43,913 nt of DNA. It comes from Ectocarpus siliculosus (Eukaryota; Sar; Phaeophyceae; Ectocarpales; Ectocarpaceae). Shown here piece after piece: positions 13,801 through 16,450 of this stretch. The DNA lies in NCBI GenBank assembly GCA_000310025.1, contig FN649734.1:3136081-3179993 (forward strand), read 5' to 3'. Below the pieces are notes generated by a model that was given only the letters and a program-made list of their open reading frames with translations, was not told the origin of the DNA and searched no databases. A program made the translations under genes and the position numbers. The first letter of the stretch is position 1; the number at the start of each line of letters is the position of its first letter.

Positions 13801-16450
13801 CCCTAGCACATACACTTGTCTTTGTTGTTGAAATACGCTCGATAACACACACCCCACTCCCCCTTCCCGTTGTACCCCTTCGCAACTCACGGAACCCCCC
13901 TCCCAGTTGTTCAACTCGTCGCCGGACGAAGCTAGCTACTACAGGGGAATCCTCTGCCGAGAGAACGTGGCGTCGTCTCTGGTGATGCTGCAGCCCAGCC
14001 TCCTCTCCTACTCGTTCCAGGTGCCCACACATATGATTTGGCGTTTCAACCGATGTTCTGGTGTCCAGGTATCCACACATGCATGGTACATTGTTGTCAA
14101 GACGAAAGAATGGTCTTGCAATACGCATTATGTGATTTTGTCGTTTCAACCGATGTTCTAGGGTCTCGCGTCCGTCATGGGCGCGATAACGATTGATACG
14201 CCGCCAGACCGGGCAAAAGTTTTGCAGGGCGAAGTTTTGGGACTCATACCGATCCCTGCTGTATTGTACTGTTTTTTTTGTTTCGTGCCATATGGTAGCT
14301 CCGACGGGTGGGCTCTCGATCTCAAACGGTTTGTACTCCTTCATGCACATGCGGGCCATCGAAAGGGGGACCGGCAGTGAGGAACCGTGGGTGTTTCTGT
14401 CGTTGACATCGTCATCGAGTTACAGCGATGGATGACCCCTTTCCCCTCGTATTTCTGTGACCCCCTCCCCCCAAAGGGCCCGCCGGTGCCCGCGATGCTG
14501 GACGCGGCCTCGGTACGGCCGGACACGATCCTGCTGCTGGACACCTTCTTCCACGTCGTTATCTTCCACGGAGAGACCATCGGGGCGTGGAGGGAGCAAG
14601 GGTGGGTTTGTGAGGAGTCTCGCATGCTTAGGCGATAGACTTGACGTTTTGTTTGGAGGCTCGCATGGATAAACACTAGACTTGCCGTTTTTTCAAGTCT
14701 CGCATGGATAAACGAGAGACTTTGCGCGTTTTCTTGCAAGTGTAGCATGGATGAACGAAAGACTTTGGCGGTTTACTTTGGGTCTCGCATGCTCAAGCAA
14801 CAGACTTGGCGTATACTTGGAGTCTCGCGTAGATAAACGAAAGACGTCGCGTTTTCTTTGGAGTCTCTCACACATCAACAATAGACGTCGCGTTTTGTTG
14901 AAGTCTCGCATGCATATACAAGAGCCTTGCCGTGTGTCTATGGTATCTGCCGCTCTGGCGCTGCGGGGAGCGTGTGAAGCTTGTTGTTGTCAAAACGGCT
15001 AAATGTAGAGAAGAGCCATATCGGAAAAAGCGTAGGAGATAGGTCAATCAGAAAACAACCGGGGTGCTGTGTGTGACAGTATTGGGGGCATTGCTGTGTC
15101 GAGGGTCGCCAGCAAACTAGCGTAGGTCCACGTCGTACAGGCATAATCCCTCTCGCATTTCTGTTGCAAGCCCCCCCGACGTGTTCACTGCCCACCACTC
15201 CGCCCCTTACGAATCGTGTCGGTGATGACTTGATGGCTGCCGTACGACGATCCCAGGTACCAAGACCACGAGGAGCACGCGGCTTTCCGGCAGCTGCTGG
15301 AGGCGCCCCAGGCGGACGCGCAGATCATCATGCAGAGCCGCTGCCCAGTGCCGAGGTGTGTGTGTGTGTTTTCTTTATTAGCATCGACCGCGCTAACCGG
15401 CTGGCCAATGAAAAGACGTCAATCTCAGTGCGGTTGAATACACAACAGTCTTCGTAAAGGTCATAATCTGGGACCTCCGTGAGGGGGTAGGCTCTGTGTG
15501 TTTGTGTGTGTGTGTTTGGACACGAACGGCGCTTTAGCCGGCTGACCATTGAAGTATGTGTGGTGTGTTGCGTGTGTCTTCCGGCCTTACCATCAACGAT
15601 CAAGGGACACGTAATTTGTTTTGTTTTTTTTGTATGTGAAGCTGGCGTGTGGGTAGTTGGCAACACGGGGCGGTGTTCGCGTTTACTGTGTCATTGTTGG
15701 TTGACGTACGTGTCGGGAGGGGGAGGGGCTTATGTGTGTGGCAGGACCTCCACAAAGTTATCGCGGACGGTGTTGTTATTAACTCCCGCTTCGCCTTACC
15801 CCAGAGACAGCCGTATCTGCATCCATCGCGTGTGACTTGGTACACGTCGATTCACAAGCTCCTTTCTCCCTTTTCTGTGCATGTGATCTCTGGGTTTGTG
15901 CAAAGGCACGCCTTTGTCTGTAATCGGCAACGTCAGCGATCTCCGTGCCGTCTGTCCCCGCCTTGGCTGTATTAATCTCTTCGGTGTTGGTGTTGCCGTT
16001 CTTACGGCTCGCGTCGCGTCCGTACAAGAAACGTGTTCGTTCCCCGGCGGTCGCATGTTTGCACGGTGGCGGCGCGATCTAACACGCTCGTGTATTTTGG
16101 CATGTCTATTTTTTCTTTTTGTCGTTCGCCTTTACCAATAGCTATCTGTGTTTCACTTTTGAAAACAAAAACAAAAGATCGAAGATTCATCCTGTTTCCC
16201 TTGTCGCGGCGCATGATACGGCGCGATGCGCGGCGCACTCTCGTGCTCGCTCGCTCGCTTTCGCGGGCCCTCACACAGGTACATCGTGTGCGATCAGCAC
16301 AAGTCGGAGGCTCGCTTCCTCATCTCCAAGCTCAACCCTTCGGTGACTCACAACACGACCGACGGCTCCCAAGGGCAGGCCATCTTCACGGACGACGTCA
16401 GCCTTCGCGTCTTCATGGAGCACCTCATGAAGCTGTCCACTCAGTCGTAG
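4874..16450 (+). CDS. SEC23: SEC23, COPII coat component (complete, 14 exons)
   Basis: Exons: 4874-5089, 6695-6931, 8127-8264, 8906-9163, 9576-9743, 10200-10421, 11379-11501, 11876-11995, 12490-12663, 13275-13433, 13907-14020, 14477-14601, 15257-15355, 16279-16450 (stop TAG). Phases are consistent throughout and give 774 residues, close to human SEC23A at about 765. SEC23 is the Sar1 GTPase-activating subunit of the inner COPII coat, working with SEC24 at ER exit sites. Seen: [15 protein letters not shown] (17-31); zinc finger C60-x2-C63 and C82-x2-C85; trunk motifs ALVGLITFG and KSYVFRG (exon 3), GLLEMRVC and MVLGDSF (exon 6); beta-sandwich [17 protein letters not shown]; helical part [11 protein letters not shown] and [15 protein letters not shown]; gelsolin-like end [26 protein letters not shown] and [11 protein letters not shown]. 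Introns 1-11 are phase 0, and introns 12 and 13 are phase 2. Exon 4 has a Gly/Ala/Gln insert (about 208-235). The exon 7 start could instead be 11352, which would add nine residues. Intron 2 needs a GC donor. Confidence 0.96.
5325..5383. repeat. (CT)n microsatellite in SEC23 intron 1
   Basis: Nearly uninterrupted CT dinucleotides with one TTT interruption near 5374-5376. The tract lies inside intron 1 (5090-6694) and far from either splice site. Confidence 0.95.
5606..5822. mobile_element. TA-flanked inverted-repeat MITE, copy A (SEC23 intron 1)
   Basis: This 217-bp element has long terminal inverted repeats of about 50 bp. The left end reads CCGTATATGACACAAGATAA and continues through CACACCCCCTTGACCG to CAAAGCTCGATT. 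The right end is its reverse complement with few changes, closing on GTCATATACGG. A TA dinucleotide borders both sides (5604-5605 and 5823-5824), as expected for a Tc1/mariner-type target duplication. The interior carries no coding capacity, so the element is non-autonomous. It shares ends and interior with 36473-36690. Confidence 0.85.
6151..6172. repeat. Interstitial telomere-like repeat
   Basis: Three GGGTTAGGGT-type units, slightly degenerate, in SEC23 intron 1. Similar short tracts occur at 22911-22938, 32352-32375, 40686-40704 and 43038-43050. Confidence 0.6.
6932..8126 (+). other. SEC23 intron 2 with a GC-AG boundary
   Basis: Exon 2 must end at CTCCAGCAG (6931) and exon 3 must start at ACTCTCAGC (8127) to give the conserved [18 protein letters not shown]. 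The intron therefore starts GCGCGT and ends ACAG. Using the GT at 6936 instead leaves a phase-1 end that no nearby acceptor can match. The intron also holds a TTG tract (6948-6973), a 16-base direct duplication (7063-7078 and 7829-7844) and a poly-C run near 7366-7381. Confidence 0.75.
7220..7660. repeat. 28-bp inverted repeat in SEC23 intron 2
   Basis: The arm at 7220-7247 begins GCGGCTGTTGAAAGTT. The arm at 7633-7660 is its reverse complement with one mismatch in 28. The 385-bp loop includes the poly-C tract. No target duplication was recognised, so this may be an old element end or a local inverted duplication. Confidence 0.75.
10422..10448 (+). repeat. (GT)n tract forming the 5' splice site of SEC23 intron 6
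   Basis: Exon 6 ends in CAG at 10421 and the intron begins directly with about 13 GT dinucleotides followed by GACTGAAG. The donor is therefore embedded in a microsatellite, as in the R1-containing introns described separately. Confidence 0.85.
13109..13210. repeat. 51-bp tandem duplication with internal hairpin (SEC23 intron 9)
   Basis: Units 13109-13159 and 13160-13210 differ at one base (TATATT against TACATT). Each unit contains GGTGCAGCG and its reverse complement CGCTGCACC about 13 bases apart, so each can fold into a 9-bp stem. The pair ends 64 bp before the exon 10 acceptor. Confidence 0.92.
13437..13475 (+). repeat. (CTG)13 at the donor of SEC23 intron 10
   Basis: Thirteen uninterrupted CTG triplets start three bases inside the intron (exon 10 ends at 13433, donor GTACTG). 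They run on into a degenerate TTG tract. Length change here could affect donor recognition. Confidence 0.92.
14615..14940. repeat. About 41-bp minisatellite in SEC23 intron 12
   Basis: Eight diverged tandem units start near 14615, 14655, 14697, 14738, 14780, 14820, 14861 and 14901. The shared unit begins GAGTCTCGCATGGATAAACG, followed by an AGACTT-type block and a GCGTTTT-type T-rich end. It begins 14 bp after the exon 12 donor. Confidence 0.85.
15356..15490 (+). repeat. Dispersed repeat R1, starting exactly at the SEC23 intron 13 donor
   Basis: The order is a GT tract (15356-15366), a T-rich tract ending TTATTAG, the core GCATCGACCGCGCTAACCGG (15381-15400), then CTGGCCAATGAAAAGACGTC and a CAATCTCAGTGCGGTTGAA block. 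About 90 bp further on comes GGGACCTCCGTGAGGGGG. The same order recurs at 26457, 27957, 28044 and 37852. The first base of the repeat is the first base of the intron. Confidence 0.85.
15499..15557 (+). repeat. Dispersed repeat R1, degenerate second copy in SEC23 intron 13
   Basis: A GT tract (15499-15516) is followed by GGCGCTTTAGCCGGCTGACC and ATTGAAG. The core is recognisable but shorter than in the copy immediately upstream, so this looks like an older tandem neighbour. Confidence 0.65.

Follow-up and report, generated by a model that had tools for sequence, protein, structure and literature searches.

Four kinds of described element bear on R1, a repeat found at the start of introns in the brown alga Ectocarpus siliculosus. 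One is the RTE-X LINEs of Ectocarpus itself, with 16,418 copies; the 3' ends of this group, RTEX-N1_Ec32 among them, are very abundant and many are intronic, and RTEX-N1_Ec32, a non-autonomous element, has its 3' end in common with autonomous LINEs (PMC12477816). The accessible portions of that account mention neither GT-tract targets nor insertion at splice donors. As described there, these elements resemble R1 in the abundance and intronic position of their 3' ends, in a 3' end common to different elements and in a genome of similar size, R1 itself having short 5'-truncated copies and at least two bodies with a common 3' end; R1 copies differ from the account of RTEX-N1_Ec32 in carrying the end of an open reading frame (ORF), a difference that rests on description and not on sequence comparison. 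By this analogy, R1 may belong to the RTE-X families of Ectocarpus. Togen, a NeSL-related group of fish LINEs, is specific for (TG)n microsatellites (PMC4640811). Its target is thus like that proposed below for R1, a likeness of target and not of clade, but the accessible part of the Togen account draws no link to splice donors. RTE elements of Lepidoptera have a short 3' UTR with a simple-repeat end and many 3' partial copies (PMC2887409), as does R1; in the available text, however, their repeat is put down to the element and to slippage rather than to a GT target. Introners make introns by inserting into exons (PMC9860276). R1 is like them, as far as the available description goes, in having splice sites at the element's edge and in its position in genes, but unlike them in filling only part of larger introns. 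Among the published titles and abstract openings found by searching, none described a LINE of this kind meeting GT-tract donors.

Results

R1 copies in the window and the introns that begin with them

The window is a stretch of 43,913 nucleotides of contig FN649734.1 (positions 3,136,081 to 3,179,993, forward strand). The first-pass annotation placed about nine copies of R1 at five loci, all on the plus strand, and this description was upheld by both a core scan and a gapped comparison within the window. Where 0.01 occurrences of the core, at up to 3 mismatches, would be expected, 5 are found, every one of them on the plus strand. Gapped comparison returned eight plus-strand pieces at the five loci and a single weak match on the minus strand (24 nt, 30019-29996, E=0.006); a short, degenerate remnant with its own GT tract, recognised by eye at 15500-15557 (plus strand), brings the number of copies to about nine. 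At 15356-15490, (GT)n is followed by TTTCTTTATTAG, the core and the body. Three copies stand in a row at 26367-26581 (approximately 26377-26415, 26447-26512 and 26554-26581), and two more, both bordered on the left by a GT tract, at 27937-28173 (27941-28011 and 28028-28173). One degenerate copy occupies 28977-29030. The last copy, at 37826-38001, has no clear GT tract on its left side and is followed at its right end by a CTGTGTGTG tract. A GGGACC..GTGAGGGGG block recurs in variant forms at 15356, 28024 and 37826.

Two of these loci open an intron. The SEC23 gene lies on the plus strand and was recognised by matches to the Sec23_trunk and Sec23_helical domains. One of its exons ends at 15355 and the next starts from 16279, which places the donor exactly at 15356 and defines an intron of 923 bp (15356-16278, plus strand); R1 lies in the first 200 nt or so, and most of the intron is not R1. 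In the second case, a predicted plus-strand gene read from its frame, the donor is at 26367 and the next exon begins at 26645. The resulting 278-bp intron (26367-26644) holds the three copies in a row, with some 60 nt remaining outside R1. Thus, as previously noted, the first base of R1 is the first base of the intron in both genes. The accompanying claim, that AG|GT borders both introns at each end as a target duplication would produce, stands as regards the bases and fails as regards the duplication: because R1 stops short of both acceptors, the AG|GT pairs are no evidence of a target duplication made by R1. Another predicted SEC23 donor (10422-10448, plus strand) reads CAG|GTGTG.. and consists of 27 nt of GT with no R1 attached. 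It has the appearance of an unoccupied target of the kind proposed below.

R1 as the probable antisense 3' end of a LINE

The genome search covered 189 Mb in 492 contigs and found the exact R1 core 619 times, 316 and 303 times on the two strands. The sample was drawn from the places listed on contigs C1 to C6, comprising 96 loci (L009-L104) with 100 exact cores; with two exact copies from the window, it amounts to 102 copies, of which 94 to 96, depending on the filter, have distinct left flanks. The requirement for an exact core biases this sample toward young copies.

R1 copies have in common the edge (GT)n-TTTATTATTAG-core, while the other edge ends variably, about 30 to 900 nt away. One fixed and one ragged edge are what a non-LTR retrotransposon with 5' truncation shows when it is read in reverse, and R1 copies accordingly combine a fixed 3' end with variable 5' truncation. 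They also have the simple-repeat tail of a LINE: of 102 copies, 75 have a GT run in the 60 nt on the left and 1 has a CA run there. Read in the LINE sense, the copies include an ORF terminus (..SVFDPKDSLASPMLPPHGVPVHG* and variant forms), seen in 24 rows of at least 40 residues picked by motif; the stop codon falls 74 nt before the core end in 10 of the 24 rows, two of these rows being the same copy. In two places (L013, which is the same as L128, and L129) the segments HSLV[CS]TKTGA, DVTIVN.SAG and RIRRRF.FELARFLSMR and then the R1 3' end follow one another along the same strand over some 1.1 to 1.6 kb, in a single frame in L129 and in three frames in L013. These segments, which had no match in Pfam, resemble the C-terminal part of LINE reverse transcriptases. 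Upstream of the same segments, and on the same strand, a further locus (L130, C9:2352424-2354572) contains a reverse-transcriptase piece with RGVQQGCNLGGFGF and YVDD; its match to RVT_1 (E-value 7.6e-7) reaches 29.5 bits, just under the cut-off of 29.6. Reverse transcriptase and R1 are hence joined through overlapping copies and not within one unbroken copy. Given the truncation pattern, the ORF end and the overlapping copies that reach a reverse-transcriptase piece, R1 is, as judged by this overlap, the 3' end of a non-LTR retrotransposon (LINE) seen as its reverse complement. The final 45 nt or so of the R1 3' end are common to two or more bodies.

Another locus, L107, was considered as an autonomous partner, having reverse-transcriptase pieces with R1 about 0.5 kb downstream. 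However, two further copies of this LINE, L022 and L026, stop at a C tract before reaching the R1 part, and L107 represents another LINE, with R1 as its neighbour. Inspection by eye of the 150 reverse-transcriptase places listed against the listed R1 and C-terminal places revealed no other pairing of the two kinds of place.

As a separate observation, differences among seven copies of the R1 ORF number 649, 589 and 857 at codon positions 1 to 3, with non-synonymous differences (954) exceeding synonymous ones (333); both sets of figures come from a weak test on an alignment unchecked by eye.

GT tracts at both edges

Were the GT tract of R1 a tail only, ordinary DNA should lie at the far edge, so that GT repeats found there count as target. 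Of 94 copies, 52 have a GT run of at least 7 nt no more than 30 nt from the right edge, as opposed to 5 of 90 at +100 nt (p=5e-14) and 2 of 79 at +200 nt; CA runs were found in 0 of 94, and 2.1% of random 60-nt windows contain a GT run. In 6 of the 52 cases another R1 comes after the edge. Since unmasked edges might favour GT runs, edge calling was repeated after masking GT and CA runs, with similar counts: 54 of 95 at the edge (13 of them followed by another R1) versus 10 of 90 at +100 nt and 5 of 85 at +200 nt, and CA runs in 1 of 95. GT repeats are thus found on both sides of R1, although not in every copy: the right edge is free of a GT run in 42 of 94 copies before masking and 41 of 95 after it.

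Three copies have duplicated targets that include GT: L101 (GCGCGCGCGTGTGTGTTT), L016 (AACAGGTGTGTGTG) and L096, where the exon end AGAAGATTCTTCG.CAG|GTGTG is present on both sides of R1. By sequence reading, the duplications in L096 and L016 appear to span the exon|intron junction, in which case the donor predates the insertion at these two places. Exact duplications of at least 8 nt outside GT were found in 7 of 89 copies, with no clear excess over the null (mean 2.7, maximum 6). Taken as a whole, the GT tract behaves as a pre-existing target, although the tract on the left may derive in part from the RNA tail.

Splice donors and gene strand

Donors of the sampled copies are predictions, from either a codon model or sequence reading. 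The model was started from SEC23 exons plus a kinase ORF and recovers many SEC23 exons; it replaced an earlier one, trained on long ORFs, that was contaminated. In 20 of 94 copies a coding segment with the same sense as the GT strand ends between -60 and +12 nt relative to the R1 tract, whereas an antisense edge falls there in 4 of 94 (p=0.0015). The coincidence of R1 with donors is above chance, at variance with the random placement that the first-pass annotation had named as grounds for dismissing it. GT tracts of at least 8 nt without R1, taken from the long loci, gave 6 of 48 sense and 3 of 48 antisense (6 and 3 of 66 in a first count with a looser filter), and the difference from R1 in sense coding ends has p=0.25. 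By reading, the GT-rich tract begins at the donor itself in 9 of the 102 copies (L016, L026, L047, L087, L091, L096, L097, L099 and the SEC23 copy at 15356). Some of these tracts are imperfect, and L016 was missed by the codon model. In L026 the next predicted exon lies about 300 nt past the end of R1.

GT tracts at donors are not confined to R1. CAG|(GT)n occurs 104 times in the genome and the reversed pattern 5 times; among long GT tracts preceded by G, 252 of 706 are preceded by AG, compared with 48 of 304 in the reversed control. Among the 20 CAG|(GT)n places that head the list, 3 have an R1-like core and 17 lack one, and a coding segment was called in the upstream 200 nt at 14 of these 20, at a lax threshold and without a matched control. 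Many introns in this genome thus begin with a GT tract. In the whole genome, 37 R1 tracts are preceded by AG.

The GT strand of R1 runs in the same direction as the gene in 23 copies and in the opposite direction in 6, with 65 of 94 uncalled. For other GT tracts the figures are 7 and 9, with 32 of 48 uncalled (p=0.02 for the comparison with R1). The bias is stronger at R1, so the presence of a GT tract is not enough to account for it. The additional bias may reflect selection removing intronic copies in the LINE sense, whose 3' end contains an AATAAA motif. The earlier suggestion of an element that tends to sit antisense in genes fits as to orientation, the carrier being a LINE and not a SINE.

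Discussion

The observations are best accounted for by a (GT)n-targeting LINE that primes on GT tracts, which in this genome often mark 5' splice sites, and of which R1 is the antisense 3' end; we put the probability of this reading at about three in four. It draws on the LINE anatomy of the copies, the GT runs at both edges, the GT-tract donors without R1 and the excess of donors and of gene-strand orientation. In its own sense the element would comprise the C-terminus of the ORF, the stop codon, about 75 nt to the core end, ..GCCGGTTAGCGCGGTCGATGCTAATAATAAA and then (CA)n. Target-primed reverse transcription would put it into GT-rich DNA: the nicked GT strand probably pairs with the (CA)n tail of the RNA and primes the cDNA. 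Such GT:CA priming would set the orientation and one edge, the other being left ragged by 5' truncation. Since many introns here begin with a GT tract, a share of the insertions would fall on first intron bases, their GT strand running in the same direction as the gene. The donors would mostly be older than R1, and splicing would survive through retention or duplication of the donor AG|GT.

The proposal that R1 is an introner, or at least supplies donors, would have the element land in an exon and make an intron, providing the donor and either co-opting or carrying an acceptor. It is prompted by the coincidence of the first base of R1 with that of the intron, seen in SEC23, in the second gene and, by reading, in another eight copies of the sample, by the GT.. 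and pyrimidine-rich tract with TAG that R1 brings along, and by the AG|GT that borders each of the two window introns on either side. However, R1 forms only a part of the introns whose acceptor could be placed, the SEC23 (923 bp), 26367-26644 (278 bp) and L026 introns all containing sequence that is not R1. Only 20 of 94 sampled copies lie near a predicted donor, the junctions duplicated in L096 and L016 already had GT, and R1 is absent from the 17 CAG|(GT)n places mentioned above. With a GT tract that looks pre-existing and with GT donors that lack R1, R1 is unlikely to be an introner, and we give that origin a very small chance. The converse relation, in which the GT tracts at donors are themselves products of R1, the (CA)n tails of tiny or decayed insertions having seeded microsatellites at intron starts, has a precedent in the Lepidoptera, where RTE 3' ends are described in the available text as seeding microsatellites (PMC2887409), and R1 tails are indeed GT tracts. 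That GT runs are found at the other edge too (52 of 94, or 54 of 95 masked), and that GT lies inside the three duplicated targets, so that in those cases the tract came first, makes this rather improbable as the general explanation.

A preference of the LINE machinery for the 5' splice site itself, beyond the GT sequence and mediated for example by splicing factors, R-loops or nascent transcripts, could be seen in the higher proportion of coding ends at R1 (20 of 94, versus 6 of 48 at other GT tracts) and in the gene-strand bias of 23:6 versus 7:9. The former difference falls short of significance (p=0.25), a strand bias of this kind would also follow from selection against intronic LINE-sense copies, and many copies have no predicted exon nearby; we regard such a preference as distinctly unlikely. 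The tRNA-related SINE raised in the first-pass annotation is scarcely credible. The reverse strand, GGTCAGCCGGTTAGCGCGG, looks like a D-arm, but no tRNA family matched at E<=1 in the four loci searched (L105, L037, L107 and L015) and no tRNA was found within the window, so that a tRNA-like 5' head was not seen in these sequences. The body is instead a protein-coding end, and the similarity among copies is at the 3' end rather than at a 5' head. Rfam microRNA matches in L105 and L015 were below the cut-offs.

A (GT)n-targeting LINE in a genome rich in introns that start with GT is thus the most economical cause of the coincidence between R1 and donors. A bolder and, in our estimation, doubtful extension is that the target of the LINE has in effect become the 5' splice site. 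The LINE would recognise donors that have a GT tract, or else the splicing machinery assembled there, and antisense insertion at intron base 1 would duplicate the exon|intron junction, lengthen introns from the donor end and renew their GT tracts, so that splice-site sequence and target might co-evolve. The simpler model of a LINE directed to (GT)n predicts the sites of new insertions, their tendency to lie antisense to genes, and growth of introns at the donor end with splicing intact. It also offers a simple route by which a retrotransposon can mimic an introner, namely by targeting a dinucleotide repeat that happens to mark donors, and searches for introners should check for pre-existing GT tracts at donor sites.

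Some copies of R1, the dispersed repeat read as the antisense 3' end of a LINE, occur in series. In locus L066 of this genome (positions 500-900, counted, as for the other loci, within the locus), four near-identical R1 cores form a tandem, with roughly 121-125 nt from one to the next; it looks like the outcome of an amplification that followed insertion. Inspection by eye of loci L052, L076 and L096 revealed successive R1-like stretches, at least three in a row, each series within a single GT-rich intron start. The same R1, its flanks nearly identical, is found at L022, L054 and L075, as a passenger within a larger repeat. 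A segment, ..CTCTTTTCT.GATAGAGATGGATTCGTTGTGTCATA.., is inserted in the body of two R1 copies, at about 4070-4175 in L016 and near the R1 of L025; perhaps it is another small element that a source R1 copy carried.

A second LINE, different from the R1 source, contains pieces of reverse transcriptase. It ends in a C tract in all three copies seen (L107 1-2580, L022 5821-8001 and L026 6457-7072).

Genome-wide, long GT microsatellites directly following CAG are a frequent intron start, as exemplified by window positions 10422-10448, at a predicted SEC23 donor. A whole-genome pattern count gave 104 places for CAG plus GT microsatellite versus 5 for the reversed pattern; R1 was present at 3 of the 20 places inspected (the first 20 among the matches listed).
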